From positions 1-50,164 of IMG/VR virus record IMGVR_UViG_3300021197_000796: DNA of 50,164 nucleotides; one strand, 5' to 3'. The notes under the pieces were generated by a model. It was not told the origin of the DNA, did no database searches, and saw only the letters and a list, made by a program, of their open reading frames with translations. Source of the stretch: a virus. Positions 8,174-24,306 of this stretch are shown piece by piece (positions within the stretch are counted from its first letter, which is position 1; each line of letters begins with the position of its first letter). The translations under genes and the position numbers were made by a program.

Positions 8174-8551
8174 TTACTCCTCGTCAGTACCCTTACCCAG
8201 AGCAGCCATCAAGGCACTCACTGCACCTTCGTTCTCTTCGTCATCAGTACCAACCTCTTGCTCCTGTACGTGGGAACTAGGGGACCAACCAGCACGAGAA
8301 CGCAGGTATAGCTCTTGAGACTTGAAGTCACCTTCTAATGCTTGGTCAATAACAGTCTTGCCTACCTTAGCATCAAGAGTGAACTTAACCTCATCCATAT
8401 CCTCTCTGTACAACTTATAGAAAGTCGTGTAGGACTGAGGTGCATCCTTCATGTGCAACACAGAAGCAAAGATCTGTCTGACAGTAACACCACCACTGAT
8501 ACCTTCTCGTACCTTACGTGCGATGTTAGGGTTCTTAGGGAGTTTAGCCAT
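8174..8551 (-). CDS. terS: Terminase small subunit (probable)
   Basis: 125 aa from the ATG at 8551, chosen because GGAGCC precedes it and the start overlaps the stop of the upstream gene. Longer readings in the same frame lack a ribosome site and give an atypical arginine/serine-rich extension. The N-terminal half resembles a helix-turn-helix (REGISGGVTVRQIFASV), followed by FKSQELYLRSRAGWSPS, typical of TerS proteins that end in an acidic tail (here GTDDEENEG). It recognises the packaging site and loads TerL. Called from pattern and from its position directly before TerL. Confidence 0.75.
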   Translation of the reverse strand: MAKLPKNPNIARKVREGISGGVTVRQIFASVLHMKDAPQSYTTFYKLYREDMDEVKFTLDAKVGKTVIDQALEGDFKSQELYLRSRAGWSPSSHVQEQEVGTDDEENEGAVSALMAALGKGTDEE

Positions 8552-8783
8552 CAGTAGGCTCCGTTTGTGTAAGGCGCTTGTACTGCGCCGGATAGTTAAG
8601 GTGCGTCCACTCTGTAGCACCGCGATTGAAAGCGACCTCGACGGCACTCTCAAGGTCGGACTCAAGGTCTTCGATCCAAGCTGCCGCAGCAACGGCCACA
8701 GAAGCATCGGCTGCACTGGACGATTTGCGCTTACTTATGAAGTCCAAAGAATTTAGTAGCTGCTCCGTATTGCCTCTAAACAT
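8544..8783 (-). CDS. Unknown protein, first gene of the late block
   Basis: 79 aa, starting after AAGGAGC. It has an alanine-rich helix (DASVAVAAAAWIEDLESDLE) and a polar C-terminus. Its stop overlaps the TerS start by 8 bp, so the two are translationally coupled and probably act together, perhaps in packaging. I do not recognise a family. It is the first gene after a long leader that contains the shared control elements. Confidence 0.65.
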   Translation of the reverse strand: MFRGNTEQLLNSLDFISKRKSSSAADASVAVAAAAWIEDLESDLESAVEVAFNRGATEWTHLNYPAQYKRLTQTEPTDG

Positions 8784-8862: not shown

Positions 8863-8892
8863 GAGCCTTTCCACAAAATTGTGGATTGCCAC
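8863..8892 (-). promoter_or_regulatory. 30-bp element, inverted exact copy of 15836-15865
   Basis: This 30-bp stretch is the exact reverse complement of 15836-15865, inside the ParB-like gene. The core is CCACAA-AA-TTGTGG, extended by one further pair on each side. A 30-base match is not expected by chance in 50 kb. It lies in the leader of the late block, in the same orientation relative to transcription as its partner. I infer a protein-binding site, possibly for the ParB-like protein itself. Confidence 0.7.
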
Positions 8893-9001
8893 CTGTCTCT
8901 ACCACAACGCTATAGTTACCCCGTCACTCACAGCTTAATTGCTGGTGGAAACAGGGTTCCCTCTTGGGGAGGAAATTCTTATGGGGGAATATTATAATAC
9001 C

Positions 9002-9027
9002 ACCCCTAATAAGTAATTCTTAGGGGT
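9002..9027. terminator. Hairpin, possible weak terminator or regulatory stem
   Basis: ACCCCTAA at 9002-9009 pairs perfectly with TTAGGGGT at 9020-9027 around a 10-base loop. No T-run follows on either strand, so termination is uncertain. It lies inside the late leader, downstream of the putative promoter element. Confidence 0.3.
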
Positions 9028-9156
9028 CGCTAGGAATCTGCCCTAGGACTGCACCATGAATCACATTGGTGTAACTTAAGTATAGCTTAAGTATAACTTA
9101 CTTTACGTAAGAACTTATATCTTAATGATTAATAATTATAGATTATAATACTGTTG

Positions 9157-9221
9157 TGATTCTTATGTATAACTTAAGTACCTCTTACTTATATGTAGTT
9201 ATGGATTTCAGATCACACAAG
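9157..9221 (-). promoter_or_regulatory. 65-bp control element upstream of the late block (copy of 15335-15399)
   Basis: Reading leftward, these 65 bases match 15335-15399 at 57 positions without gaps. The longest identical blocks are CCATAACTACATATA and TATACATAAGAATCA, with GTAAGAG and ACTTAAG between them. It has no TTGACA box. A TATTATAAT stretch follows about 6 bp past the element. I infer a phage-specific promoter or activator site driving terS and downstream late genes, perhaps read by the sigma-like factor at 14737-15324. Confidence 0.65.
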
Positions 9222-9518
9222 CAGTTTCTTCTCTAGTGCGTCATTTTGTAGCAATATTATACTATACTGTGACATAAATAACACTACTATAGGTATTTTC
9301 CTTTTGTTTTTATTTCTAGGGGTCGCTTCATATGTGATTCTTGGGGTGGTACATATGAGATTCATGTAGGGTGTGGTATCTAAAGAACACATAGGGGCTT
9401 CAGCGCCGGAATGACGTAGCGTCACCCTGAAGTATTTTCTTTCTTTTGGATTCCGACTGGTGTACCCCACACCCCTAGCGAATCACCTGAGAATCCAGAG
9501 GGACCCTAATGTCAAGAC

Positions 9519-9790
9519 CCAATGCACACCCCGCGCCATTATCTTTAGATGTGTTGCATCTGTGCACTAGTGTAGCCCCAATGCAACTAACATAAGGATT
9601 CCAATGGTTTACGCTTGACAACCAAAGAAATTCATGGGCCGAGGATAGGCGAATCGCAGCACCACAGTTAATTGTAACACGTTCCAACATTAGCCTACCC
9701 AATGCGTGCACCTGCGCACATTACCAATGCAACCCAATGATAACGTGCGCAAATGTCCAATGCCTCTCACAAGCGATATAAGCGCCAATG
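9519..9790. repeat. Cluster of eight same-strand CCAATG motifs
   Basis: CCAATG occurs at 9519, 9578, 9601, 9699, 9724, 9734, 9757 and 9785, all on the + strand in 272 bp. Several extend to CCCAATGC. Random expectation for a hexamer here is well under one. Spacing is irregular (10-98 bp, with several of 23-28). This looks like iterons or a multi-site binding region for a phage or host protein. Confidence 0.6.
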
Positions 9791-9879
9791 AAGGCCATGT
9801 AACTTGTCAGGCTAGGGCTATAGCCAAAGTGCCCCGTATAGCATCACAAATAGGCTTATAGCGGCTATGCTATCGCGGA

Positions 9880-10116
9880 TCATACTAATTCAACCCGCCA
9901 GTAACCCCGACGTTGCATGCCCTTAAACGTACTATAATCTTTCCCTTTGATAGCTGTATCAATCTTGCGGCGCATATCCATAGATTGACCAAACGAAACA
10001 CCTTGCCAATCCCACGTTTTAGACCAGCGCTGATTGACTATCACTTGCGCAATGGCCTCTTTTTCACATGTGATTGATTGATTCTTATCCATCGGCTTTA
10101 CGTTAATGTGACTCAT
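9880..10116 (-). CDS. Unknown small protein
   Basis: 78 aa, last gene of the small leftward cassette. It starts after GGAG located inside the previous gene, whose stop it overlaps. It has a central W-rich stretch (NQRWSKTWDWQGVSFGQ) and a basic C-terminus (GMQRRGYWRVELV). No membrane segment. The compact basic and aromatic make-up could suit nucleic acid or protein binding, but I do not recognise it. Confidence 0.6.
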   Translation of the reverse strand: MSHINVKPMDKNQSITCEKEAIAQVIVNQRWSKTWDWQGVSFGQSMDMRRKIDTAIKGKDYSTFKGMQRRGYWRVELV

Positions 10117-10117
10117 A

Positions 10118-10285
10118 TCAAGACTCCTTCATCATACGGCAATATGACTCATGGCATTCACAGCCTAGTCGGATAAGTGTTGAGGCTTGCTTAAGTGTTA
10201 GCCCATTGTGATCCGCATAGGCTCGCATAGTCAGATAATTGTTGACATATTCCAGATAGGCTTCGCGTAGTTTATCGAATTGCAT
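10118..10285 (-). CDS. Unknown 55-aa protein with possible HTH
   Basis: 55 aa from the ATG at 10285, preceded by AAGGA. A second ATG at 10290 is in another frame and stops early. The stretch MRAYADHNGLTLKQASTLI resembles a helix-turn-helix, and the C-terminus has three cysteines (GCECHESYC). It is followed by an overlapping gene start. The tight gene packing and clean ribosome sites support a real gene. Function unknown. Confidence 0.55.
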   Translation of the reverse strand: MQFDKLREAYLEYVNNYLTMRAYADHNGLTLKQASTLIRLGCECHESYCRMMKES

Positions 10286-10326
10286 TGCATTAATCCTTAT
10301 TTAAACCGAAGTTTTCTGATTCCCTT

Positions 10327-10584
10327 TTATCCGTAAGGGCAATATTCCATTTTAGGGCCAGCGGGTTCTAGTCGAGTAACCGCGATACCGTCCAAACCTT
10401 TGGATACTTTGCGCTTAGGGTTAGCGCAAATGTTTACGCAAGCGTGCAATCTGGCCTCTCGTTCAAGCGTGGTGGACTCGTTCCAGAGTCTACCCCTTGT
10501 TACCCCGTTGACGTAAACCTTTTTACCGCTTGGGGTGTAGTATTCTGCGGAGAAGTAAAACAGTTGTGTTTGCCTTTTAATCAT
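10327..10584 (-). CDS. Unknown small protein
   Basis: 85 aa, starting 2 bp after the previous gene ends. It begins with a beta-like segment (QLFYFSAEYYTPSGKKVYVNG) and continues with an Arg/Glu helix holding two Cys (HACVNICANPKRK). No signal peptide or membrane segment. It is part of the six-gene leftward cassette of small proteins. I do not recognise the family. Confidence 0.6.
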   Translation of the reverse strand: MIKRQTQLFYFSAEYYTPSGKKVYVNGVTRGRLWNESTTLEREARLHACVNICANPKRKVSKGLDGIAVTRLEPAGPKMEYCPYG

Positions 10585-10585
10585 A

Positions 10586-10882
10586 TCAAGACTCCATCTT
10601 GCGTTTCATCTGCTCGCCTGCGTCAATCCAAGCGTTGATAACGTCGTATGTTTCCCTAGCGGTTCCACGTGGTGACAAGTCGCGCTCACCTGTACCACCA
10701 CTAAAACAAACCATTTGGGACAAGCGGTGCCCGCCATAGGCCGAGTTAAGGACGAACGTGCCGTGATTGCCTTTGACATTGCCTTGCGAGTCGCGTGTGT
10801 AAGGTTCAAGGTCATATCCGAAAACATCGTTCAGAATATCCAAGCGCTTTTGCAGAATTGCCATAGTTATACGTTGTGTCAT
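10586..10882 (-). CDS. Conserved phage-type hypothetical protein
   Basis: 98 aa. It has the layout of a small family I recall from varied phages: an N-terminal helix LQKRLDILNDVFG, then LEPYTRD, a short GNxGxFxLxxAYGG motif (NHGTFVLNSAYGG), and a C-terminal helix ARETYDVINAWIDAG. The function of that family is unknown to me. It is the largest gene of the leftward cassette and overlaps nothing. The start at 10882 has only a moderate ribosome site. Confidence 0.6.
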   Translation of the reverse strand: MTQRITMAILQKRLDILNDVFGYDLEPYTRDSQGNVKGNHGTFVLNSAYGGHRLSQMVCFSGGTGERDLSPRGTARETYDVINAWIDAGEQMKRKMES

Positions 10883-10904
10883 GATGTAGATTCCTTTGAT
10901 TAGA

Positions 10905-11075
10905 TTAAATAGATTGCGTGTTGACGATAGCTAGCTGAAAAAACTCGCCTTTGCGTGTTGCCAGTTCTAACGCCTTTTCAGCTTGCGCGCGGCTCATTAA
11001 GGGCAAGCCATCAATCGGCATGAATTGCTCTTTGATATTGTTGCGGGCTGCTAGGGTATAAGTTGCGTTAGACAT
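10905..11075 (-). CDS. Unknown 56-aa protein
   Basis: 56 aa from the ATG at 11075. This start is chosen because it overlaps the stop of the gene before it (TAATG) with AAGGAGAC upstream. A longer in-frame reading to 11195 would overlap that gene completely. The helix SRAQAEKALELATRKGEFFQLAIV is amphipathic. Second gene of the leftward cassette. Function unknown. Confidence 0.6.
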   Translation of the reverse strand: MSNATYTLAARNNIKEQFMPIDGLPLMSRAQAEKALELATRKGEFFQLAIVNTQSI

Positions 11076-11245
11076 TATTTCGTCTCCTTGTTTGTTAGGT
11101 ACGTTCCGCCATCCGCATTGCTTTTCATAACAAAGCGCGCGGGCATTTTCTTGCGACCCTTTTGGATAAGGCGGAAGCGGTGCTGTTGGTCCCATAGGCC
11201 CATAATATAGTCCGTTAGGTCTTGTTCGATGTTGCGTGCTTGCAT
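11075..11245 (-). CDS. Unknown 56-aa basic protein, first gene of the leftward cassette
   Basis: 56 aa, ATG at 11245 preceded by AGGAAATTATAAC. It begins MQARNIEQDLTDYIMGLWDQ and has a basic middle (RFRLIQKGRKK). It opens the leftward set of six small genes facing away from the rightward early genes. Its TAA overlaps the next ATG. It may be an early host-takeover protein, judged only from position and size. Confidence 0.6.
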   Translation of the reverse strand: MQARNIEQDLTDYIMGLWDQQHRFRLIQKGRKKMPARFVMKSNADGGTYLTNKETK

Positions 11246-11540
11246 GTTATAATTTCCTAATTGATTGACTCGCGTTATTGCAAGCCAATGAAAAGGGAAA
11301 GTATTAATCCGGCCCCGTGAATCAACCGTGGGCGCTAGACAGGCCCGTCAGACCCGTTCCCCCGTTCCCTATATGGGCGGCGGCATAAGGGAACACTAGC
11401 GGCAAGATTCGGGGGCCGCAAGCCCTAAAATGGTAAAATGTGAAAAACACGAAAAAAGATTCTAGGGGGCGAGTCCGGGACTCTTTCCGATTAGGCATAA
11501 GAAGGATATAGAATCGCGGGCGCGCGTTATCTCAGAACGC

Positions 11541-11639
11541 CATGAGTCGTCAATAGTTATTCGGTGACGCAACGTTAACTAGATGCCCTATTGACAAAAC
11601 ATGATTCGCCCTGCTATGTTAGAGGTTCTGCGACTCATG
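11541..11639. repeat. 9-bp inverted repeat flanking P1
   Basis: CATGAGTCG at 11541-11549 and CGACTCATG at 11631-11639 are exact reverse complements. One abuts the possible leftward -35 and the other lies just downstream of the P1 -10. This layout suits operators for divergent promoters, but no repressor gene is identified. Confidence 0.4.
11591..11620 (+). promoter_or_regulatory. Promoter P1 (sigma-70 type)
   Basis: TTGACA at 11591-11596, an 18-bp spacer, and TATGTT at 11615-11620. The spacer contains GATTCG, the reverse complement of the CGAATC found in P2-P6. It probably starts rightward early transcription using the host polymerase. Confidence 0.55.
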
Positions 11640-11776
11640 TGAAATACGAATCGTTGGCGTGCAATAATAAACAGGTGAATCTGATATGGCAACCCGTTGT
11701 AACATACATCACAAAACTGTTACCTATTGTAACAATCTGAAACAAACAGCGAGTCAGGCACAGGAATCACCCGACA

Positions 11777-11864
11777 CCCCACCGAGGGAATTAGAGACCC
11801 CCACAGGGGAATTAGAGACCCCACCGAGGGAATTAGAGCTGCACCCCCACAGGGGAATTAGAGA
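11777..11864. repeat. Four 21-bp repeats of two alternating types
   Basis: Units lie at 11777-11797, 11798-11818, 11819-11839 and 11844-11864. All share GGGGAATTAGAG or GAGGGAATTAGAG. The type alternates between CCCCACCGAGGG and CCCCCACAGGGG starts, and the second type forms a small CCCC/GGGG hairpin. The fourth copy is shifted by 4 bp. Iteron-like; could be a binding array, origin or recombination-prone tract. Confidence 0.7.
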
Positions 11865-11908
11865 TTGTTTGTAGTATAACCTGTTGATAACAAAATAAAA
11901 TAAAACTG

Positions 11909-11937
11909 TTGACATCTAACCCGAATCACGTCATAAG
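11909..11937 (+). promoter_or_regulatory. Promoter P2 with CGAATC spacer
   Basis: TTGACA at 11909-11914 with a weak -10 (CATAAG, 11932-11937) 17 bp on. The spacer has CCGAATCACG. It lies about 50 bp upstream of the first small rightward gene. Confidence 0.45.
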
Positions 11938-11960
11938 TAATTCATACAAGGAGACAACAC

Positions 11961-12050
11961 TTGACAGACCAAGATGACCCATGCGATGACTGGTCAGACT
12001 ATAAGATCCCAGAGACCGACGACACAAGTAAGGAGAAACCAGATGACTAA
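11961..12050 (+). CDS. Possible 29-aa acidic peptide (TTG start)
   Basis: A TTG at 11961 follows AAGGAGACAACAC and opens a 29-codon frame rich in D (DQDDPCDDWSDY), ending TAA at 12048-12050 over the start of the next gene. The ribosome site and overlap favour a real small gene. The TTG start and short length keep confidence low. Confidence 0.35.
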   Translation: MTDQDDPCDDWSDYKIPETDDTSKEKPDD

Positions 12051-12201
12051 GAAAACATGCGACTCCTTTCTCTGCACCAACAAGTGCCCTAAGAAGTACA
12101 GATACTGCTATGACTGCGCAAAGAGAAAAGGTTTGATTGGCGGGGGTAATAACTGGGGTCTTGTTGTCCTCGTGATAATCCTTTTGCTTTGGTTCCTTTA
12201 G
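12043..12201 (+). CDS. Small Cys-rich membrane protein
   Basis: 52 aa from the ATG at 12043, preceded by AAGGAG. The N-terminal half has six cysteines (CDSFLCTNKCPKKYRYCYDC), suggesting a zinc knuckle or disulphide cluster. A GGGNN linker follows, then a strong transmembrane segment to the end (WGLVVLVIILLLWFL). It is probably inserted in the inner membrane as a single-pass protein. An early phage gene of this kind may act on host envelope proteins, but this is a guess. No family recognised. Confidence 0.65.
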   Translation: MTKKTCDSFLCTNKCPKKYRYCYDCAKRKGLIGGGNNWGLVVLVIILLLWFL

Positions 12202-12204
12202 CTC

Positions 12205-12234
12205 TTGACAACCCTGAACGAATCATGCTATAAT
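12205..12234 (+). promoter_or_regulatory. Promoter P3, consensus boxes with CGAATC spacer
   Basis: TTGACA at 12205-12210 and a perfect TATAAT at 12229-12234, spacer 18. The spacer includes ACGAATCA. It is 57 bp upstream of the next start codon. Confidence 0.75.
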
Positions 12235-12261
12235 GAACGCACACTAACAAGGAGAACACTA

Positions 12262-12501
12262 ATGACTAAAACAGCAACATACTACACCGAAGACGACCTC
12301 ATCTGTGTCACCTTTGAATCAGAAGGTCGCATGAACGACTACGGTGTGTCTCGCAGCCCTGTGTGGTGGGAGCCTACAGATATCACAGTGCATACACTAG
12401 AGATCGCTGGTGAAGAGGAAAACTTCAGTGAGTTGTCTGCTACGGTACAAAAAGCTATCCTTTCTCTCGCTGACGGGTTAAACAACGACGATTGGGAATA
12501 A
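12262..12501 (+). CDS. Unknown acidic early protein
   Basis: 79 aa. The ATG at 12262 is chosen because AAGGAG lies 8 bp upstream. An earlier in-frame start at 12205 would lie in the promoter. It is strongly acidic, with an N-terminal beta-like half (TYYTEDDLICVTFE) and a C-terminal helix ending DGLNNDDWE. It has its own promoter (P3). Acidic small early proteins of phages are often inhibitors or DNA mimics, but nothing here proves that. Confidence 0.65.
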   Translation: MTKTATYYTEDDLICVTFESEGRMNDYGVSRSPVWWEPTDITVHTLEIAGEEENFSELSATVQKAILSLADGLNNDDWE

Positions 12502-12504
12502 CAC

Positions 12505-12533
12505 TTTACAATACCTCACGAATCACCTACACT
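12505..12533 (+). promoter_or_regulatory. Promoter P4 with CGAATC spacer
   Basis: TTTACA at 12505-12510 and TACACT at 12528-12533, spacer 17. The spacer has CACGAATCACC. It is 63 bp upstream of the next start. Confidence 0.5.
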
Positions 12534-12567
12534 TAAGACATACCAACAAAGAACAGGAGAATAACTA

Positions 12568-12924
12568 ATGACTAACCAAGAAGCTTTTGATAAAATGATG
12601 AACCACCTGCGTAGCCTCAAGGGACGTAGTGTTAACAAAGATGGTTTTTGTGTGTACAACGGCCTTAAGTGTCCTGTTGGTGTTCTTATGACTGACGAAG
12701 AACAAGAACAGTTTGGTGATTTCAAGGGTAGTGTAGACCACCTCCTTGAGGAAATGTGGTCAAACGGACACGAATCCATGCTTCATGGTTTGAACTTTGC
12801 GTTATTAAGCTATACGCAAGCTCTTCATGATGATGGCGGGTACTGGGATGCCCGAGGTTTTGCTGCTGAAGAGTCAGCTAAAAAAATCGCTATTCAGTTT
12901 GGACTGACCTACAATAAGCCTTGA
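12568..12924 (+). CDS. Unknown protein, first of a tandem duplicated pair
   Basis: 118 aa, starting after AGGAG. It and the next gene share most residues (MTNQEAFDKMMNHLRSLK; VYNG.KCPVG.LMTDEEQE; EESAKK.A..FGLTYT.P). It has a CPVG turn in the middle and is mostly helical. No membrane segment. The duplication includes the promoter, so each copy is a separate promoter-gene unit. The N-terminal helix and conserved V-Y-N-G-x-K-C-P-V-G motif resemble small host-control proteins of T7-like phages only loosely. Function unknown. Confidence 0.75.
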   Translation: MTNQEAFDKMMNHLRSLKGRSVNKDGFCVYNGLKCPVGVLMTDEEQEQFGDFKGSVDHLLEEMWSNGHESMLHGLNFALLSYTQALHDDGGYWDARGFAAEESAKKIAIQFGLTYNKP

Positions 12925-12949
12925 CACTGACTCACGAATCACCTATACT
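12921..12949 (+). promoter_or_regulatory. Promoter P5 with CGAATC spacer
   Basis: TTGACA at 12921-12926, 17-bp spacer with CACGAATCACC, and TATACT at 12944-12949. It overlaps the stop of the gene before and lies 57 bp upstream of the next start. Confidence 0.75.
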
Positions 12950-12977
12950 TAGGACATATCAACAAGGAGAATAACTA

Positions 12978-13334
12978 ATGACCAACCAAGAAGCTTTTGA
13001 TAAAATGATGAACCACCTACGTAGCCTCAAGGTACGTAGTATGAGCGAAGGTGGTTCTTGTGTGTACAACGGTTCTAAGTGTCCGGTTGGCTTTCTTATG
13101 ACTGACGAGGAACAAGAGAAGTGGGGTACATTCGAAGGTGATGTTCACGAACTTCTTGAGGACATGAGCCGCAAAGGTCACAAGTCTTTGCTTCATGATT
13201 TGGACCCCGATTTCTTAGAAAATGTGCAAATTCTTCACGATCAGCGGTGGCGATGGGATGAGAGAGGGTTTGTCGGTGAAGAGTCAGCTAAAAAAACCGC
13301 TGAACATTTCGGACTGACCTACACTAATCCTTGA
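12978..13334 (+). CDS. Unknown protein, second of the duplicated pair
   Basis: 118 aa, the same length as the copy at 12568-12924. It differs mainly in the middle third (residues about 50-95), where it reads GTFEGDVHELLEDMSRKG. The ends are nearly identical. That pattern suggests duplication followed by divergence of the interaction surface while the fold is kept. It is driven by P5. Function unknown. Confidence 0.75.
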   Translation: MTNQEAFDKMMNHLRSLKVRSMSEGGSCVYNGSKCPVGFLMTDEEQEKWGTFEGDVHELLEDMSRKGHKSLLHDLDPDFLENVQILHDQRWRWDERGFVGEESAKKTAEHFGLTYTNP

Positions 13335-13359
13335 CAATACCTCACGAATCGCTGTAGCA
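13331..13359 (+). promoter_or_regulatory. Promoter P6 with CGAATC spacer
   Basis: TTGACA at 13331-13336, then CTCACGAATCGC. The -10 is weak (GTAGCA at 13354-13359). It lies 55 bp upstream of the next start codon. Confidence 0.5.
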
Positions 13360-13385
13360 ACACTTATATTAACAAGGAGACTAAC

Positions 13386-13661
13386 ATGCTTACTAAAGAA
13401 ACAGTACAACAAGCCCTAGACACAATCAAAGGCACGATGTTCACGATTGACTTCCTAACGGTAGCTGGTGAGCCTCGTACGTACAACGGACGCCTTAACA
13501 CTAAGAAAGGTCTCAAGGACAACGAGCGTAGTGCTGTCGTACGTGCTGCATTCGAAGCTAATGGTGTTGTCCCTATTAAACTAACAGACGGAATTAGCTA
13601 CAAAGCCTTTAAGCTAGACCGTGTTGTGGCTATCCGTGGTGCAGGTCAGGAGTGGACATAA
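13386..13661 (+). CDS. Small beta-barrel protein (possibly SH3-like, DUF2693-type)
   Basis: 91 aa, starting after AAGGAG. The pattern MFTIDFLTVAGEPRTYNGRL, then an RSAVVRAAFEA segment, then YKAFKLDRVVAIRG resembles the short SH3-like beta-barrel proteins common in phages (DUF2693-like). These set basic and hydrophobic strands around a small core and are thought to bind nucleic acid, although their role is not settled. The stop TAA overlaps the next ATG. Family assignment is by pattern only. Confidence 0.6.
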   Translation: MLTKETVQQALDTIKGTMFTIDFLTVAGEPRTYNGRLNTKKGLKDNERSAVVRAAFEANGVVPIKLTDGISYKAFKLDRVVAIRGAGQEWT

Positions 13662-13882
13662 TGAACATCACCATACTTAAGAGTAAGGAGATCCAAGACC
13701 CGTTGCCTGACCGTATACATATTCAAAATGCACACCTAGCAGCTACAAAGGAAGATTGGGGTTATACTATTATCAAAGACAGGATTAACGATAAGGTAGG
13801 TGTACATATGACACATCAAGAGTTTTGGACTTATGTGTCGGACTTGGAGAAAGAACGAGTATATAACACGCGATATCAATAG
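13661..13882 (+). CDS. Unknown 73-aa protein
   Basis: 73 aa from the ATG at 13661, whose A is the last base of the previous stop (TAATG). GGAG lies upstream. An ATG 9 bp earlier lacks spacing. Predicted alpha/beta, ending in a charged helix (FWTYVSDLEKERVYNT). Translationally coupled to the SH3-like gene. No family recognised. Confidence 0.6.
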   Translation: MNITILKSKEIQDPLPDRIHIQNAHLAATKEDWGYTIIKDRINDKVGVHMTHQEFWTYVSDLEKERVYNTRYQ

Positions 13883-13902
13883 AAACTAAGAAGGAATAAC
13901 TT

Positions 13903-14301
13903 ATGACACCCCTGATGTGCATGGCAGTAGCGGTATTCTTTGAAGCCAGAGGAGAACCTATGGTCGGCAAGGAGGCAGTAGCTAACGTAATCATCAACCG
14001 AGTGGAAGACAAACGTTACCCTAACTCAGTTTGTGCAGTGGTGAACGAACATAAAGCCTTCAGCTACACTCACGATGGCCTCTCAGACGACCCTACGCGC
14101 CACACAGGGCATCAGGACAAGATTGCATGGGTAGAGTCTCAAGAGGTAGCTAAGGACGCTCTTAGTGGTGATCTGTTAGGTATCACCAGTACGCACTACC
14201 ACACAACAAATGTCTTGCCTTTCTGGGCTAAGCACTATAGTTTTGACGCAAGGATCGGGGAGAATCACCTGTTCTACACTAACGAAACACCTTATAAATA
14301 G
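13903..14301 (+). CDS. Cell wall hydrolase, SleB/CwlJ (Hydrolase_2) family
   Basis: 132 aa. The family signature is clear: MAVAVFFEARGEPMVGKEAVANVIINRV, with the catalytic Glu in FEARGE, then YPNSVCAVVNEHKAFSYT and a late THYHT motif. The family cleaves the glycan backbone of peptidoglycan as a transglycosylase or amidase-like hydrolase. There is no clear signal peptide. It lies in the early region, far from the lysis cassette at 32.7-33.7 kb. So it may help late lysis, alter the wall during infection, or be a remnant of an older lysis module. Confidence 0.85.
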   Translation: MTPLMCMAVAVFFEARGEPMVGKEAVANVIINRVEDKRYPNSVCAVVNEHKAFSYTHDGLSDDPTRHTGHQDKIAWVESQEVAKDALSGDLLGITSTHYHTTNVLPFWAKHYSFDARIGENHLFYTNETPYK

Positions 14302-14310
14302 GATACACAC

Positions 14311-14472
14311 ATGACATTCGAACTAGAGCAACAACTCCGAGAACTAGGCATCATGCCAGCAGATACATTCACAGAACTAGCAGCGCCCGTACAGGACTAC
14401 CGTGAGAAGTTCTTAGCTAAAGGTTACTACAACGATCCACGCGACCCCTTGACTGGTGAAGTACCTTTCTAA
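14311..14472 (+). CDS. Unknown 53-aa protein
   Basis: 53 aa, starting 10 bp after the hydrolase ends, with AGGATACACAC upstream. Helical N-terminal half (FELEQQLRELG), acidic, ending GEVPF. It shares the operon of the hydrolase. Function unknown. Confidence 0.5.
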   Translation: MTFELEQQLRELGIMPADTFTELAAPVQDYREKFLAKGYYNDPRDPLTGEVPF

Positions 14473-14498
14473 TAACATAAGAAACTGGAGAATAACAC

Positions 14499-14735
14499 AT
14501 GAATATCTACTATATGGGTGAGAATATCACAAAGAGCCGTTTCCCTATCAAGGTCTGGAACGAGCAAGTCAAACGTGACGTAGGGGCTACGAAATGTCCA
14601 GCAGAGGAATACCAACCTCACTCAGAGCGTTGGGGTGAGCCAGAGCCTGATGGTGTAGGTCCAGATGCAGGGTTGCGTTGGGTGAACAACACAGACGACA
14701 CACGAGTAGACACATTCCCAAAGGAAGACAAATAA
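14499..14735 (+). CDS. Unknown 78-aa protein
   Basis: 78 aa, after ACTGGAG. It is rich in P, E, D and W (GEPEPDGVGPDAGLRW) and probably has little fixed structure beyond the first 30 residues. It ends one base before the sigma-like gene, so it is probably co-transcribed with it. No family recognised. Confidence 0.55.
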   Translation: MNIYYMGENITKSRFPIKVWNEQVKRDVGATKCPAEEYQPHSERWGEPEPDGVGPDAGLRWVNNTDDTRVDTFPKEDK

Positions 14736-14736
14736 C

Positions 14737-15324
14737 ATGACACCTGAGTTCATCACTACACTATCCAAGAAGAGTGCCTTTAAGTATCGCAACTCAAGCC
14801 ACCACGACGATTTGGTATCCGAAGGGATCATGGCTGCATACGAGGAGCTAACAGAGAACCCTGAGACGACAGAGCAGCGTATGTATCAGGTTATCAACTG
14901 GGCGCAGTGGAAGTTTCTTAATGTAGATCGACTGCCTGTCACGATCCCTTTTCAGCTTGTAAGGGTAGCCAAAGGTTTCGGTGATCCTGATGACAAGCAG
15001 GGTTTCTCAGATGAAACTATTGCTTGGGCAAAGGTTATTTTATCTCAAGGTCAGATGAAATCTGAACACCACGATGTAGATCAAGAGTCAGATCAAGCCC
15101 AAGAGTATTCTGATGCAGACCTTTTGGACAGCATCTGGGAATCTGCTAAAGAGTGTCTTACAGAAGAGGATTACGGTTTGTTTCACTCTCACTTTGAAGT
15201 GGGACTAGATCAAAAGTCTTTAGGGGGTATGCTTGAGGTATCGCAACAGTCTGTCAGTCTCCGACTACTTAAAATAAACGAAAAGGTCCGAAAGCACGTT
15301 GTGAACAAAAAATGGGAGTTGTAA
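14737..15324 (+). CDS. Sigma-70-like RNA polymerase sigma factor
   Basis: 195 aa. The N-terminal half resembles sigma region 2: HHDDLVSEGIMAAYEELTE, then YQVINWAQWKFLNVDRLPV. Next comes TIPFQLVRVAK, like region 3. The C-terminal 50 residues end in a region 4-type helix-turn-helix (LGGMLEVSQQSVSLRLLKINEKVRK). I infer it directs host RNA polymerase to phage middle or late promoters. It lies immediately upstream of one copy of the 65-bp control element (15335-15399); the second copy lies before terS. It is short for a housekeeping factor and closer to ECF-size or phage sigma factors. Confidence 0.75.
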   Translation: MTPEFITTLSKKSAFKYRNSSHHDDLVSEGIMAAYEELTENPETTEQRMYQVINWAQWKFLNVDRLPVTIPFQLVRVAKGFGDPDDKQGFSDETIAWAKVILSQGQMKSEHHDVDQESDQAQEYSDADLLDSIWESAKECLTEEDYGLFHSHFEVGLDQKSLGGMLEVSQQSVSLRLLKINEKVRKHVVNKKWEL

Positions 15325-15483
15325 CATTACGTGACTTGTGGAATCTGGAACCCATAACTACATATAGGTAAGAGACACTTAAGGTATACATAAGAATCAA
15401 CACAAGTTCTTTTAGTACATAATCATCATGGTTATAAATACTAAAGAATAACATAAGTAATACATAAGAAAGGAAGGAAGAGG
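15325..15483 (+). promoter_or_regulatory. Control region upstream of the ParB/replication operon
   Basis: AT-rich 159-bp gap. Positions 15335-15399 hold the 65-bp element shared (57/65) with 9157-9221. It is followed by TACATAAT (15416-15423) and TTATAAAT (15432-15439), possible -10 boxes, and by two ACATAAG repeats before the ribosome site AAGGAAGGAAGAGG. I infer this is the middle promoter for replication genes. Confidence 0.6.
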
Positions 15484-16335
15484 ATGCTTTACGAGTATCA
15501 TGAAATCTGTCTGTGGCTACCACACAAGCCTGAGACGGTAGAAGACATCGCTGCTGACATCAAGGATAATGGTTTCAGACCTGATCGGGCTATTGTAACC
15601 TATGAGGGTAAGATTCTAGATGGTCGTCACCGTTATGAGGCTGCACTAGAAGCAGGTGTTGACCCTGTGTTCACGGAGTTCAGTGGCGATAAGCGAGAGG
15701 CTATCAACTATGTTACCTCTGAGAATGTCGCACGGCGGCACTTGAACAACAAAGAGAAGGAGTATTTCTACATTAAATCTGCCGCGTTTTTTGGTGTACA
15801 GTCACGCGGTGGAGAGAGGGGTAATCAGTACCAAAGTGGCAATCCACAAAATTGTGGAAAGGCTCTACCCCAAGGAGAACATGCAAAGGCTTTAGGAGTC
15901 CACGTAAACACCATAACAAGCTGGGAGAAAGACCGTAAGGAGATCGTGGCTGACGAAGAACTGGCAGAAAAGGCGAAGACCCCTGAAGGTTATCAAGAGG
16001 CTAAGAAGACCGTAAAAGAACGCAGGGTGAGCAAGCAGCAACAAACAAGAGAGGCTATTGCTAATACTGTCGCACCTAACGTGATTGACCTACACGCTAT
16101 CGCTAAGGACAAGAGTTCTGTAGACATTCGTAACATTGCTCCAGCTTTCGTTGGTCAGATGGAGATGCTTTGTACGAAGTTCGATGAGCTAGACATCAAG
16201 ATGGAAATCGCAGCTTTTATGCACCCAGACCCTCTTGGACTAAAGGTAAAAGCCTTACATGAGATGGCAAATATTCTAGACGACCTACGAGCAGACTTTC
16301 CTGTTGAAACGCAGGATCACCAGAAACTAAACTAA
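15484..16335 (+). CDS. ParB-like nuclease/DNA-binding domain protein
   Basis: 283 aa. The N-terminal 90 residues have the ParB/sulfiredoxin fold signature: ETVEDIAADIKDNGF, then ILDGRHRYEAALEAG, then NYVTSENVARRHLN. Next come a Gly/Gln-rich linker and a helix-turn-helix (HAKALGVHVNTITSWEKDR). The C-terminal 100 residues are helical and charged. Such proteins in phages act as transcription regulators or DNA-binding nucleases. Codons for SGNPQNCGKA overlap an exact 30-bp element that also occurs before the terS operon, so the protein may bind its own gene. First gene of the replication operon. Confidence 0.8.
   Translation: MLYEYHEICLWLPHKPETVEDIAADIKDNGFRPDRAIVTYEGKILDGRHRYEAALEAGVDPVFTEFSGDKREAINYVTSENVARRHLNNKEKEYFYIKSAAFFGVQSRGGERGNQYQSGNPQNCGKALPQGEHAKALGVHVNTITSWEKDRKEIVADEELAEKAKTPEGYQEAKKTVKERRVSKQQQTREAIANTVAPNVIDLHAIAKDKSSVDIRNIAPAFVGQMEMLCTKFDELDIKMEIAAFMHPDPLGLKVKALHEMANILDDLRADFPVETQDHQKLN
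15836..15865 (+). promoter_or_regulatory. 30-bp element inside the ParB-like gene
   Basis: Exact reverse complement of 8863-8892, with palindromic core CCACAA-AA-TTGTGG. Identity includes all third codon positions, so it is kept at the DNA level and not only as protein. It is a candidate operator or parS-like site. Confidence 0.7.
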
Positions 16336-16349
16336 TAAGGAACCCGACA

Positions 16350-16781
16350 ATGCAAGATCAACAAACATTCTTTAATTTCGCAGTAGAGAAAATGGACGAA
16401 CATTCTGTTTTCAAGTTCTACGGGGATAAGAAAACACCCCACGATGCTGTAGAGGCAGGTGCTAAGACCCTAAGCAGTATCAAAGCTACTCAACTTCGAG
16501 GACAAGCCTTTTCTAGTAAGGATACACTACAAGAGCTTAACTCCCCAACCTTCTGTAGTGCGGTAGATGGTTACGTACCTTTCTGGTGGGCGGTTAAGAA
16601 CTACCCCAAGGAAACTTTCGAGGCTTGGGAGAAACGCGCTGACATGGCTGCTGCCCTACAAAAGAAGCAGTTTGTGTTTATGACAACCGCTCAGCTTTAT
16701 CTTGGTGGTGTTAGTGACCCAAACCAAGAGAGTCTTCTCCCAGAGGACTACTACACTGAAGAGCTGTCAACTAAAGGTTAA
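16350..16781 (+). CDS. Unknown 143-aa protein of the replication operon
   Basis: 143 aa, after AAGGAACCCGAC. It has aromatic and charged helices (TFFNFAVEKMDEH, FWWAVKNYPKETFEAWEKR), with no Cys cluster and no membrane segment. It lies between the ParB-like gene and primase-helicase, 14 and 23 bp away, so it probably serves in replication or its control. No family recognised. Confidence 0.65.
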   Translation: MQDQQTFFNFAVEKMDEHSVFKFYGDKKTPHDAVEAGAKTLSSIKATQLRGQAFSSKDTLQELNSPTFCSAVDGYVPFWWAVKNYPKETFEAWEKRADMAAALQKKQFVFMTTAQLYLGGVSDPNQESLLPEDYYTEELSTKG

Positions 16782-16804: not shown

Positions 16805-18394
16805 ATGAATAGAACTGGTTTACCCTGTCCCTTCTCTGGTTGTGGCTCTTCTGACGCTTTCAGTTGGCACACAGAGAAACAAGTAGGCAAATGCTTCAGT
16901 TGCGACGAGAGTTACCCACATAAGGGTATGGTTTTACAGAGTTGGGCTGCTCAAGAGTACCCGCTTAAGGACAATAAGAATATGACTGTAGACGACATGA
17001 TACCTAACGTACCAAAGACAGTGCATGACAACACGCCTTCTGAGGGTCTGGTGTATAAAGAGTTCAGAGGTATCTCCCCAGCGACTATGGAGTTCTTTGG
17101 TGTTAAGACTAACGACCTCAAGCAAGTCTACCCTTACCCTAACGGGACCAATAAGGTTCGTATGCTACCTAAAGACTTCAGCCGTAACGCTGGGTTCAAA
17201 GCAGACAGCCTATTCGGTAGTAACCTGTTCCCTGTAGGTTGCGCTCGTAAGGTAACTGTATGCGAAGGTGAACTAGATGCCATGAGCGCCCATCAGATGC
17301 TCTCTGGTGGTGGCTACATCAACCCTGTGGTGTCTCTGCCTTCTGCAAGCCCTAACGGTAAGCTCTGGGGCAACGTATCGGCTTATCTGGACAGTTTCGA
17401 TCAGATCATTCTGTCGGTTGACAACGATGACGCTGGACGTGAGGTCGCTGAGGTTCTGTTTGATCTGTTCCCTGAGAAGGTTCACATCATGGACCACGGT
17501 ATCCATAAGGACGCTAACGACTTCTTGTTAGCTAGTGCAGGTCGGGCATACAAGAGTGCTTGGTGGTCAGCTAAGAAGTACAGCCCAGCAGGGTTCACAG
17601 CGGGTGCAGAGGATTGGTTGAAGGCTGTTCATGAGGAGACGCCCTACGAGTACACACCTACGTTCTCTGAGGCTCTTAATGACGTCACACGAGGTTGGGT
17701 CAAGGGTGGCATCACAGTAGTAAAGGCACCGCCGGGAACGGGTAAAACTTCTGTGTTCCGAGCAGCACAGCACGATCTGGTAGTAAAGAAGAACATGCGT
17801 GTAGGCGTCCTGCACATGGAGGAAATGAAGAGTACAACAGCGCGGGGTATGGCAACGTATCACTTAGGTAAGAATGTGAACACACAGGAAGACCAAGAGT
17901 TCTACGATGTGAGTAACGAATCGCTTGACATTGCTATCTCTGAGGTAGTAGAAGATAACAAGTTCGTTGCTTTTGAGGTCAACCCTCAAGACCCTATTGA
18001 AGATACGCTTAAGCAAGCTAAGTATGCAGTAACAGTCTACGGTTGTGACTACCTGTTTATCGACCACTTGCAACGACTAGCGTATTTATCTGGTGTTGAT
18101 GGTGCCACTGCTGCCCTGACGGAATTAGGGGTTCGGTTGGTTGAGTTCTCTAAGCGGCGTAACGTAGGGATCATATGTATCTCACACGTCAACGACGATG
18201 GCAAAACTAAGTATGCCAAGTCAATCGAAGAGGAAGCTATTATGCTAATTGAACTAAAGCGAGACATGAAGGCTGAAGGTGCAGACGCTAACTACACTGA
18301 CGTAGAAGTCACTAAGAACCGTCCGTATTCACGTCTAGGAGAAGCTGGTCGTTTGCACTACAACCCTGAGACTACTATTGTAAAGGGAGTTTAG
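16805..18394 (+). CDS. Fused DNA primase-helicase (T7 gp4-like)
   Basis: 529 aa. It unwinds the fork and primes lagging-strand synthesis. The N-terminal zinc-binding domain has C8, C13, C30 and C33. The TOPRIM domain shows VTVCEGELDAMSA and LSVDNDDAGREVAE. The C-terminal RecA-like hexameric helicase has Walker A APPGTGKTS (about residues 309-317), Walker B-like YLFIDHLQRL and ICISHVNDDG. Length and domain order match T7 gp4 (about 566 aa). It should work with the family A polymerase downstream. Confidence 0.93.
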   Translation: MNRTGLPCPFSGCGSSDAFSWHTEKQVGKCFSCDESYPHKGMVLQSWAAQEYPLKDNKNMTVDDMIPNVPKTVHDNTPSEGLVYKEFRGISPATMEFFGVKTNDLKQVYPYPNGTNKVRMLPKDFSRNAGFKADSLFGSNLFPVGCARKVTVCEGELDAMSAHQMLSGGGYINPVVSLPSASPNGKLWGNVSAYLDSFDQIILSVDNDDAGREVAEVLFDLFPEKVHIMDHGIHKDANDFLLASAGRAYKSAWWSAKKYSPAGFTAGAEDWLKAVHEETPYEYTPTFSEALNDVTRGWVKGGITVVKAPPGTGKTSVFRAAQHDLVVKKNMRVGVLHMEEMKSTTARGMATYHLGKNVNTQEDQEFYDVSNESLDIAISEVVEDNKFVAFEVNPQDPIEDTLKQAKYAVTVYGCDYLFIDHLQRLAYLSGVDGATAALTELGVRLVEFSKRRNVGIICISHVNDDGKTKYAKSIEEEAIMLIELKRDMKAEGADANYTDVEVTKNRPYSRLGEAGRLHYNPETTIVKGV

Positions 18395-21176: not shown

Positions 21177-21542
21177 ATGACTGAACTTAAAACAAATCTA
21201 ACACAATCACAACTGGACCAACTCGTTGAACTGATCACTTTTAGGGAGGATTTGGGCGGACGTCTGGTTATTGAGCACGTCAACGGCGACGTCAACGGCA
21301 ACGTCAACGGCGACGTCAACGGCAACGTCTTGGGTAACGTCAAGGGCGACGTCTGGGGCAACGTCAACGGCGACGTCGAGGGCAACGTCAGGGGCGACGT
21401 AGGAGGCAGTGTCTTGGGCGACATCAAGTATCACGTCTTGGGTAACGTCAAGGGCCACGTCAAGGGCAACGTCGAGTGCAGTGTCTTGGGCAGTGTCTTG
21501 GGCAGTGTCTGGGGCGACGTCAAGGGCATAAGGGACACATAA
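21177..21542 (+). CDS. Tandem-repeat protein with GNV/GDV repeats
   Basis: 121 aa, after AAGAGGATAACAGT. The first 38 residues are helical (SQLDQLVELITFRED). Residues about 38-118 are a chain of four-residue units (N/D-V-x-G) such as NVNGDVNGNVNGDV. Regular Val every four residues suits a narrow beta-solenoid or bactofilin-like fold. It is encoded by a 12-bp minisatellite (21277-21535). It lies just before the tRNA gene. Function unknown; polymer-forming or sticky virion-associated roles are possible. Confidence 0.7.
   Translation: MTELKTNLTQSQLDQLVELITFREDLGGRLVIEHVNGDVNGNVNGDVNGNVLGNVKGDVWGNVNGDVEGNVRGDVGGSVLGDIKYHVLGNVKGHVKGNVECSVLGSVLGSVWGDVKGIRDT
21277..21535 (+). repeat. 12-bp minisatellite inside the GNV/GDV gene
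   Basis: About 20 units of the type GGCGACGTCAAC / GGCAACGTCTTG follow in register, so the frame is kept whatever the unit number. The central units (21277-21330) are the most perfect. Expected to vary in length between isolates. Confidence 0.8.
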
Positions 21543-21554
21543 TAACTAAACAAT

Positions 21555-22163: not shown

Positions 22164-22217
22164 TTAACTAGGGGTCAGCTTAGGTTGGCCCCTACCTTAA
22201 CCTAACGGAGATAACAA

Positions 22218-22523
22218 ATGATCGAATACACAGTAAAAGTTCATGCTAATGGCTCTAAGCATTGGTACTTGAATGATAAACGACATCGTGAAGATGGTCC
22301 TGCTGTAGAGCATGCTGATGGTGGCAAGTCTTGGTACTTGGGTGGTAAACTACACCGTGAAGATGGCCCTGCTATGGAGTATGCTGATGGTGACAAGTCT
22401 TGGTACTTGAATGGTAAGTGCATGACAGAAGAAGAGCATAAAGAAGCTATGAACCCTGTAGAAGAAATGACTATGGAAGAGATCTGTAAGGCTCTAGGAA
22501 AGAACGTAAAGGTGAAGAAATGA
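22218..22523 (+). CDS. HREDGPA-repeat protein 1 (MORN-like/YwqK-type repeats)
   Basis: 101 aa after ACGGAG. Two units of a 23-residue repeat (G-K-x-HREDGPAxExADGxKSWYLN) are followed by a conserved tail, MTEEEHKEAMNPVEEMTMEE...GKNVKVKK. Three more genes in this window (25071, 26718, 32053) carry the same repeats. Similar repeats are found in phages and in bacterial YwqK-like antitoxins, where they form a flat beta-sheet. Role unknown. It overlaps the next start (ATGA). Confidence 0.8.
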   Translation: MIEYTVKVHANGSKHWYLNDKRHREDGPAVEHADGGKSWYLGGKLHREDGPAMEYADGDKSWYLNGKCMTEEEHKEAMNPVEEMTMEEICKALGKNVKVKK

Positions 22524-22711
22524 CTGAGAAATACACAATGACCTACGAAGGTCCAGAAGGCACTAAGGTAACACGAGAGTTCAACTCTGAAGATCTGTAT
22601 GAAGTAGCTTATCACACACTTGAGTTCATTCGAGGTACAGGCTTTGACTACGTGGATATGCTAGAGTTCAGCACACCTGACGGAAGCATCTATCGTGCGG
22701 AGTCTCTGTGA
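22520..22711 (+). CDS. Unknown 63-aa protein
   Basis: Overlaps both neighbours by 4 bp. Predicted beta start (KYTMTYEGPEGTKVTREF) then a helix (EVAYHTLEFIRG). Acidic. Translationally coupled to the 5'-3' exonuclease, so it may be a partner or a simple moron. No family recognised. Confidence 0.6.
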   Translation: MTEKYTMTYEGPEGTKVTREFNSEDLYEVAYHTLEFIRGTGFDYVDMLEFSTPDGSIYRAESL

Positions 22712-23400
22712 CTAAGGTACTCGTAGACGCAGACATCATCGCTTATCGTGCAGCATTCTCAGCAAAGGATGACACAGAGAAACAAGCACGTAAGACAACT
22801 GACGATATTTGCAGTAGTATCATGTACGACTGTTTCTACCCTTACGATTATGAGTTAAGCAAAGACGCTTTCTTTTATCTAACGGGTAGGACTAACTATC
22901 GTTTTGATATCGCAACTATCAAGCCATACAAAGGAAAGAGAGGTGATAAACCTGTGCACCTCAATGCCACACGAGACCAACTACAGACACGTTGGTTAGC
23001 TGAGGTCATTGAGGGTCAGGAAGCAGATGACGCACTGGGGATTAAGGCTACTGAGTTAAACGGAGACTGCACTATCGTCTCTATCGACAAAGACTTGCTT
23101 ATGATACCTTGTACGCATTATAACTTCGTGAAGAAAGAGTGGACAGAGGTAAGCCAAGAGCAAGGTGACTACTTCTTCTACAAGCAACTTCTAACAGGAG
23201 ATCAAGTGGATAACATTCAAGGAGTAAAAGGCATCGGCCCTAAGAAGGCTGAGAAGGCTTACGAAGGGTGTACTACCGTGCAGGAGATGTACGTTAAGGC
23301 ACTAGAGATGTACAACGGTGACGTAGATGAGCTACTAGAGAACGCTAGGTTGCTGTGGTTGCGTCGTTATGAAGGTGAAATGTGGGAGCCACCAGTATGA
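22708..23400 (+). CDS. 5'-3' exonuclease / flap endonuclease (T7 gp6-like)
   Basis: 230 aa with a GTG start at 22708. The PIN-like core begins KVLVDADIIAYRAAF. It has EGQEADDALG and IVSIDKDLLMIP as metal-binding motifs, and an H3TH DNA-binding motif GDQVDNIQGVKGIGPKKAEKA. It removes RNA primers and degrades host DNA in T7-like replication. It overlaps both neighbours (4 bp). Length is near the family minimum (T7 gp6 is 300 aa). Confidence 0.9.
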   Translation: MTKVLVDADIIAYRAAFSAKDDTEKQARKTTDDICSSIMYDCFYPYDYELSKDAFFYLTGRTNYRFDIATIKPYKGKRGDKPVHLNATRDQLQTRWLAEVIEGQEADDALGIKATELNGDCTIVSIDKDLLMIPCTHYNFVKKEWTEVSQEQGDYFFYKQLLTGDQVDNIQGVKGIGPKKAEKAYEGCTTVQEMYVKALEMYNGDVDELLENARLLWLRRYEGEMWEPPV

Positions 23401-23627
23401 TTTATAAAAGTGCGAAAGAACTTTGTGACGCGGGTGCTGAACTTGTAAGCCATAACTGGGGGTCAACATGGAATGATGGCGGGAGGTGGAACATCTGGAT
23501 TTACGAGTTGCCAGACGGTACATTTTGGAAGGTCCATCAGCGTAGCGACTACTCGTCATCAGTAGAGTTGTCAAAAGTCAAAAAAGTTGTAAAGGAGGTA
23601 GTGTCTTTTATTAATGAACAAACGTAA
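23397..23627 (+). CDS. Unknown 76-aa protein
   Basis: ATG at 23397 overlaps the exonuclease stop by 4 bp. Beta-rich and tryptophan-rich middle (NWGSTWNDGGRWNIWIYELPDG), charged C-terminal helix. Overlaps the resolvase gene by 14 bp. It lies between two nucleases, so a DNA role is plausible. Not recognised. Confidence 0.55.
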   Translation: MIYKSAKELCDAGAELVSHNWGSTWNDGGRWNIWIYELPDGTFWKVHQRSDYSSSVELSKVKKVVKEVVSFINEQT

Positions 23628-24045
23628 GGCAGCACAACTAAAGTATGGGGTACGATCAGGACTTGAGGCTGACAACTGTAAGTACCTTGAAGACAAAGGT
23701 ATCCCATACGAATATGAGAAGCATAAGATCAAGTGGGAGGATCACCAGTGGCGTTCCTATACACCTGACTTTGTGCTAGATAGTAACGGTATCATCGTAG
23801 AAACTAAAGGGCGGTTCGTAGCCGCAGATAGACGAAAGCACTTGAAGGTTAAGGAGCAGTATCCTAAGTTAGACATTAGGTTCGTGTTCACTAACTCTAA
23901 GACCAAGATCAACAAAGGGAGTAAGACATCTTACGGTGATTGGTGCGAACGTCATGGGTTCCAGTATTCTGATAAGTTCATTCCTAGTGAATGGCTACTA
24001 GAACCTGAAGTTGAGATGAGAATTGAAAGGACTAAGGATGACTAA
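23614..24045 (+). CDS. Endonuclease I-type Holliday junction resolvase (T7 gp3-like)
   Basis: 143 aa, close to T7 gp3 (149). The PD-(D/E)XK core is visible: SGLEADNCKYLEDKGI with the first Glu, YTPDFVLDSNGIIVETKGRF with D and ExK, followed by basic residues. It resolves branched DNA before packaging and breaks host DNA. It lies directly in the replication-recombination block and overlaps the next start. Confidence 0.88.
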   Translation: MNKRKAAQLKYGVRSGLEADNCKYLEDKGIPYEYEKHKIKWEDHQWRSYTPDFVLDSNGIIVETKGRFVAADRRKHLKVKEQYPKLDIRFVFTNSKTKINKGSKTSYGDWCERHGFQYSDKFIPSEWLLEPEVEMRIERTKDD

Positions 24046-24142
24046 GAAGATCGTAGACCTACTCAAAACAAACGGTATCAACCCAGAGGACGCTTTGTTC
24101 TATCTCGGTGCGTACATTCAAGATCAAGAGGAAACAGTATGA
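24038..24142 (+). CDS. 34-aa peptide
   Basis: ATG at 24038 preceded by AAAGGACTAAGG inside the resolvase gene. It is a single charged helix (KKIVDLLKTNGINPEDALFYLG) and overlaps the next gene by 4 bp. Chain of overlaps supports a real gene. Function unknown. Confidence 0.5.
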   Translation: MTKKIVDLLKTNGINPEDALFYLGAYIQDQEETV

Positions 24143-24306
24143 CTAAGTTTAAGATAGGCCGCAGTTTTGGTTACGTAGGAACTGAAGATTATGACATAAT
24201 TAGCGCTGAGACATTAGAGGAAGCTGAACAACAGGCTTGGGAATGGGCTCTGGATATGGTAGAGAGTTGGGCTGAGGTTGTGGAAGAGGGGTCTGAAAAT
24301 GACTAA
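24139..24306 (+). CDS. Unknown 55-aa acidic protein
   Basis: Overlaps the neighbours by 4 and 8 bp. A long acidic helix (LEEAEQQAWEWALDMVESWAEVVEE) with three Trp follows a short beta start. It could be a small interaction or inhibitor protein. Not recognised. Confidence 0.55.
   Translation: MTKFKIGRSFGYVGTEDYDIISAETLEEAEQQAWEWALDMVESWAEVVEEGSEND

Follow-up and report, generated by a model that had tools for sequence, protein, structure and literature searches.

A ParB-like gene of an uncultivated phage probably carries a variable parS-like site beside the helix predicted to read it

We analyzed a stretch of viral DNA of 50,164 nucleotides (positions 1 to 50,164 of IMG/VR virus record IMGVR_UViG_3300021197_000796; the window), in which a 16-bp palindrome lies inside a gene for a ParB-like protein and again in the leader of the late operon. 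Sequence comparisons suggest that this palindrome is a specific parS- or operator-like binding site of the protein encoded there, and that site and recognition helix are exchanged between genes as one cassette of ∼150 bp, a joint reading to which we assign a probability of about 0.82. That the encoded protein physically binds the palindrome is very probable from five observations: the protein's fold, the geometry of the site, its fixed place among relatives, its co-variation with the helix, and the lack of a leader site in relatives without the gene. The features concerned are the following.

15484-16335, plus strand: ParB-like gene (283 residues), with a ParB/Noc-type fold at about residues 1-103, a disordered linker at 109-124, a helix-turn-helix (HTH) at 130-156 and a variable C part.
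15836-15865, plus strand: 30-bp shared segment, an inverted match (28/30) to the late leader.
15843-15858, no strand assigned: in-gene 16-bp palindrome TCCACAA-AA-TTGTGGA (7-2-7), coding for linker residues 120-125 (N-PQNCG); putative cognate binding site.
15895-15924, plus strand: codons for residues 138-147 (GVHVNTITSW), the recognition region of the HTH; among relatives, the columns of residues 140-142 and 145-146 vary together with the half-site.
8863-8892, minus strand: copy of the segment in the late leader, lying ahead of a TerS-like open reading frame (ORF; 8174-8716, minus strand) and downstream of a promoter-like element.
8870-8885, no strand assigned: late-leader 16-bp palindrome, missing from the leaders of three loci (L067, L068, and L070), all without the ParB-like gene.

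Both segments lie where the sequence-only reading had placed them, and the distances of 265 and 437 bp that it gave from a 65-bp upstream element follow from the coordinates. It had described the pair as an exact 30-bp reverse complement; direct comparison of both segments shows that 28/30 positions match and that the dyad centre accounts for both mismatches (GAGCCTTTCCACAA-TT-TTGTGGATTGCCAC in the leader, in transcription order, and GAGCCTTTCCACAA-AA-TTGTGGATTGCCAC in the gene). Since only the dyad bases differ, the 7-bp flanks are inverted and the 16-bp core TCCACAAAATTGTGGA has the same plus-strand orientation in both copies. When the two centre bases were left free, the 16-mer occurred twice in the window, at exactly these loci and with no third copy, and a reversed control pattern did not occur there. 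By a rough estimate, an inverted pair matching at ≥28/30 positions would arise anywhere in 50 kb with a chance of ∼4e-6. The core is a near-palindrome of the geometry T-N5-A-nn-T-N5'-A, which is the layout of parS and of the Noc-binding site (NBS).

The ParB-like identity of the gene, already proposed from the sequence, was borne out by several searches. PHROG matches of the 283-residue protein were ParB-like and weak, and a profile built from 40 relatives retrieved ParB-type structures from the PDB, among them Noc (7ng0, 5.6e-6) and Spo0J (1vz0, 2e-4); pentatricopeptide matches in the same search covered ∼20 residues and were regarded as spurious. An AlphaFold model (mean predicted local distance difference test score of 74.5, and ∼90 in the N domain and HTH) contains a ParB-like domain at residues 1-103, a low-confidence, disordered linker at 109-124 and the HTH at 130-156. 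Foldseek ranked Spo0J, KorB, Noc, and ParB at the top for this model with a probability of ∼1, KorB 8qa9 being among the best. At the sequence level, the P motif GxxR (Box II) is present as an invariant GRHR at 47-50, and Box III (ENxxR) as ENVAR at 80-84, with EQVDR in some relatives; HTH_3 matches were obtained for relatives. The modeled N-terminal ParB fold thus places the protein in the ParB/Noc/KorB superfamily, and the HTH, taken with the co-variation described below, would be the central HTH that reads a palindrome in members of that group. The palindrome starts 79 bp ahead of the tryptophan codon that closes the recognition helix, and it codes for residues of the low-confidence linker, so that its codons should be largely unconstrained by protein structure.

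We then compared the close family, defined as 31 viral loci encoding relatives of the window protein. A 7-2-7 palindrome sits at the equivalent place in all 31 (one codon off in L023 and L026), and the half-sites pair at 6/7 or 7/7 positions in 30/31. Their letters differ: beside TCCACAA in the window, we found TGTATCA, TGTAACA, TGTGACA, TGTAGTA, TACGCCA (6/7), TCCCTCA, TCCGACA, TCCGAAA, and TATGCAA, with a poor site (5/7) in L014. The canonical parS sequence TGTTTCACGTGAAACA is not present; the window and its relatives share the 16-bp geometry with different letters. A 27-bp core of the shared segment was found in no other viral contig. The search for the 30-mer in relatives suggested by the sequence-only reading therefore came out two ways: the sequence is not conserved, whereas place and palindromicity are kept and the letters change with the helix. 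Since the letters vary by specificity type, conservation of a fixed sequence is the wrong test, and taking its absence as the sign of a chance copy would have misled.

A wider set was assembled from the best 80 of 333 matching viral loci, picked by N-domain peptide patterns alone, and palindromes were compared with a null obtained by synonymous recoding with each gene's own codons. Linker palindromes of up to 28 bp exceeded this null at p≤0.01 in 28/79 genes and at p≤0.05 in 44/79. The corresponding counts were 0/78 and 1/78 for a window in the N domain, and 0/78 and 2/78 for one in the C part. Because the set contains a few near-duplicate loci, not every gene is an independent case, but both control windows were taken from those same genes. 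By the same measure, gene by gene, 13/24 members of the close family reached p≤0.05. Among 51 distinct sites, T stands at -8 in 33/51 and A at -2 in 45/51, with variable bases between, the layout of parS and NBS, and in the wide set there is usually one copy of the site within the stretch examined. In ParB-like genes of cellular genomes, the perfect palindromes found at this position are longer, such as the 28-bp ones of L036 and L037; phylum-wide genome searches with a Lysobacter protein gave few matches. A single ParB-like gene in L278 has two palindromes ∼40 bp apart (10075-10133; GCGGCAAATTTGCCGC and TCGGCAAATTTGCCGA), and L061 contains REP-like repeats (GCGCAA..TTGCGCGGAGTG) at 10307, 15082, and 16730, one of them within the ParB-like gene.

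The half-site follows the type of recognition helix: SRP goes with TGTATCA, SRM with TGTAACA, RRE/SRE mostly with TGTGACA, HRD with TGTAGTA, and GHR with TACGCCA; TCCCTCA is common to two different helices, GRA and GLS. With the palindrome-encoded columns set aside, the protein columns most informative on the half-site were those of the recognition helix in both sets. In the close family (25 sequences), four helix columns gave z values of 10.4, 11.7, 13.5, and 9.2, against an N-domain maximum of 4.1 (Mann-Whitney p=1e-7), and in the wide set (50 sequences), the values were 8.2, 12.2, 10.9, and 8.1 against 2.9 (p=0.0015), by a statistic that is not tree-based. The helix signal persisted when each combination of site and helix was represented by one row (N-domain maxima of 4.8 and 3.9; p=5e-5 and 0.004 for the close and wide sets, respectively). 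In both sets, the column of window residue N142 was linked to bases -5/-4 and that of S146 to base -3.

Pairs of nearly identical genes suggest how site and helix stay together. The N part, the C part, and the block of site plus helix are 100%, 98%, and 43% identical between L209 and L210; 99%, 88%, and 46% between L017 and L015; and 96%, 99%, and 54% between L031 and L032. At the DNA level, an identity of ∼95 to 100% falls to 47 to 77% across ∼120 to 200 bp around site and helix and then recovers. Moreover, the GHR helix and TACGCCA occur together in several distinct backbones (L003, L010, L017, and L028). These patterns point to the replacement of site and helix as one ∼150-bp cassette.

The second site lies in the late leader. 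Loci L067, L068, and L070 have a primase that is 87 to 92% identical and a terminase that is 77 to 89% identical to those of the window, and all three lack both the ParB-like gene and its neighbor at 16350-16781. Their leaders align to the window leader, that of L067 best, and lack the palindrome. A leader copy near the TerS start is also present in L009 (=L008) and L010, gene-bearing phages whose contigs include the leader. Each leader copy holds a contiguous stretch of the phage's own gene: 27 bp in L009, 34 bp (inverted) in L010, and 30 bp (inverted, with a changed centre) in the window. As the copies carry gene flanks, leader sites appear to arise by copying of a small piece of the gene. 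The late leader of L010 contains two palindromes (2098-2145), a copy of the gene site and a perfect variant, TACACCAAATGGTGTA. We did not find a second copy of the site on the 17-kb contig L027.

The elements upstream of the two sites, and the genes downstream of the ParB-like gene, are as follows.

9152-9221, minus strand: 65-70-bp element upstream of the late operon, promoter-like and independent of the ParB-like gene.
15335-15404, plus strand: second copy of the 65-70-bp element, ahead of the ParB-like gene and replication operon; in relatives that lack the gene, it immediately precedes the primase.
16350-16781, plus strand: gene of 143 residues, function unknown, missing jointly with the ParB-like gene in L067, L068, and L070.
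16805-18394, plus strand: DNA primase/helicase (TOPRIM plus DnaB-like); the ParB-like gene is part of this replication module.

The 65-70-bp element is AT rich, contains ACTTAAG-type words, and precedes both the late and the replication operon (window, L067, L068, L064, L066, and L097), including in phages that lack the ParB-like gene. L067 and L068 have it at two places, the late leader and the region ahead of the primase. A link between it and the ParB-like protein was rejected: it occurs in L067, L068, L064, and L066, where the gene was not found, and is thus a separate, independent feature. Ahead of the ParB-like gene lies another gene (14737-15324) whose product has a C-terminal HTH resembling sigma region 4, with weak phrog_351 and HTH_ParB matches, and might read the 65-bp element. 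Between L031 and L032, the HTH part of that upstream gene forms a second low-identity block amid ∼95% identical DNA. What stands of the earlier guess of a parS-like or operator site is the cognate site itself, supported by geometry, place, co-variation, and a leader copy found only with the gene; the copies are not exact, the 30-mer itself is not conserved, and the 65-bp element is a separate feature.

We propose that a dimer of the ParB-like protein binds the palindrome in its own gene, which would keep its DNA address in the linker, an unconstrained stretch that joins the ParB fold to the HTH. With the address encoded beside the reading helix, address and reader would stay linked, diverge together, and be exchanged as one cassette. 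In the window phage, the 30-bp segment with the site would also have been copied to the late-operon leader, and the protein most likely nucleates at both sites, perhaps as a ParB/KorB-type clamp, restraining the replication and late operons. Both sites lie a few hundred base pairs downstream of the shared promoter-like element, which would fit a repressor or a clamp like KorB (PMC11790492). Clamp loading and repression are tentative, at a little less than an even chance.

Several observations weigh against this account. Significance is not reached by about half of the wide set or, at p=0.086, by the window gene, whose own site is therefore not decisive taken singly; some close-family sites are imperfect (5/7 in L014 and 6/7 in the GHR type). 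A site in every ParB-like protein was rejected, since no linker palindrome is present in the genes of plasmids Rts1 and pCAR1 and phages AP1, LE1, P26218, and AD45-P1. Likewise, a second leader site in every relative was rejected: L016 and L019 have the gene and no leader copy, so a role in the late operon is not general, and L067 and L068 exist without the gene. As for repression, the argument is from position, and we found no sigma-70-like promoter in the element at 15335-15404.

The in-gene site might instead be a replication origin or origin recognition site and the ParB-like protein its initiator, which would leave binding unchanged and alter its consequence. This is unlikely, although the neighborhood is suggestive. 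The gene directly precedes unrelated replication enzymes in other loci, a D5-type primase-helicase in L207 and L036 and a DEAD/ResIII helicase in L237 and L240; helicases follow it in phages AP1 and LE1, and in the window, the TOPRIM-DnaB primase/helicase follows with one gene between. Among phage genomes, that of Leptospira phage LE1 is the only one near the window by protein, and a distant one; none is near by DNA. A usually sole copy of the site and the precedent of lambda, whose ori lies inside gene O (PMC4488673), also agree with an origin. However, L067 and L068 share the primase/helicase (91 to 92% identical) without the ParB-like gene and the leader site, there is no iteron array and as a rule one palindrome per gene (two in L278), and the late-leader copy is left unexplained.

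Self/non-self marking, in which the protein would target the DNA of competing phages and the rapidly changing embedded site would label the phage's own DNA, is improbable. A hypervariable cognate element inside its own gene, exchanged as a cassette, recalls BstA and aba (PMC8585504). Yet PADLOC gave no defense-family match, this idea too leaves the leader copy unexplained, and none of the observations supports it directly. A ParABS-like partition centromere, serving a carrier state or a prophage maintained like a plasmid, is very improbable. In its favor are the 16-bp parS geometry, the ParB fold, and the parS inside spo0J of Bacillus subtilis, but the protein sequence lacks a ParA-binding motif (LG-R/K-GL), no ParA was found among the part of the window ORFs that was scanned, and a late-leader site is not a partition feature.

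Readings in which the palindrome does not serve as a DNA site for a protein, but forms a hairpin in the mRNA or stems from the insertion of a mobile palindromic repeat, are highly improbable. Many of the palindromes are long perfect inverted repeats, and L061 has its repeated REP-like copies; yet the bases track residues of the DNA-reading helix, the sequences differ from gene to gene and are usually single nearby, and perfect palindromes leave little or no loop. An RNA hairpin was rejected, as mismatches show no G-U wobble bias (3/25). A chance match, or a recent neutral copy, of 30 bp, for which the restriction of the 27-bp core to this contig could be cited, is scarcely credible given the ∼4e-6 odds, the palindromes at the same place in all close relatives, and the lack of a leader copy where the gene is absent.

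The window also has other repeats. Its two contig ends (1-804 and 49183-49995) are repeats of one another whose identity drops along their length from 99% to 88% and then 74%, which suggests that the genome is circular or permuted and was assembled from reads of variants. Families of 69-bp tandem repeats (D1 and D3) at 22173-27110 and 32051-32350 are common to several small genes, whose homologues are placed elsewhere in L024 and L027, and a ∼300-bp array of a 12-bp-period repeat (21241-21552) overlaps an ORF. Two tandem paralogous genes of 118 residues (12497-13378) are 76% identical in DNA, with a 56-bp segment present three times before and after them.

ParB-type proteins with 16-bp palindromes are already known, and so are targets inside the reader's own gene: lambda ori, BstA-aba, and, in B. 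subtilis, one parS inside spo0J. The window system shares with ParB-parS/Spo0J the ParB fold, the HTH, and the 16-bp T-N5-A-nn-T-N5'-A palindrome. parS, however, is nearly invariant across bacteria, whereas sites of the window type are hypervariable, co-vary with the helix, and sit in the linker directly before the HTH of a protein without the ParA-binding motif. The operators of KorB are spread across the plasmid and are not known to form a variable site in the korB linker. In lambda, ori is an iteron array and the O protein is not known to be related to the ParB-like protein; phage ParB-like genes as a rule have one palindrome. Phages and prophages often encode orphan ParB-like proteins, for most of which, to our knowledge, no DNA target has been described.

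A few changes of HTH residues switch ParB and Noc between 16-bp sites of the same geometry (PMC7383237); that is one switch between two sites, whereas the phage family offers many natural pairs of site and helix, each site in its own gene. KorB of RK2 is a ParB-type transcription repressor (PMC11790492), and its structure 8qa9 matches the window protein, for which no KorA-like partner is known. A 2025 survey covers the same broad class, orphan phage and prophage proteins of the ParB-CTPase fold that lie outside parAB operons and diversify fast; its main text does not use the word palindrome and appears to name no cognate sites (PMC12704722), whereas in the phage family likely sites can be read from the genes. 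Lambda O and ori resemble the window system as a DNA-binding protein with its target in its own gene and replication module (PMC4488673). BstA and aba are alike in a cognate DNA element that overlaps its own gene; the protein is different, aba has terminal direct repeats, and a defense function was demonstrated for BstA (PMC8585504). In the open-access literature other than preprints, we found no report of hypervariable cognate or in-gene sites beside the helix of phage ParB-like proteins.

Many phage and prophage ParB-like proteins may write their own recognition sequence beside the helix, as an exchangeable reader-plus-address cassette under diversifying selection; we hold this generalization to be possible, just short of an even chance. 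If it is true, sequence alone would disclose the targets of many orphan ParBs and a general ParB recognition code, and the cassette could have a function in replicon identity (incompatibility, origin specificity, or self-recognition). Should the embedded palindromes prove to be the targets, the site of each such protein could be looked up in its gene, which would make a recognition code for the family testable by a handful of binding assays. Encoding one within the other and swapping them jointly would be a simple way to keep a fast-changing DNA-binding protein and its site matched.

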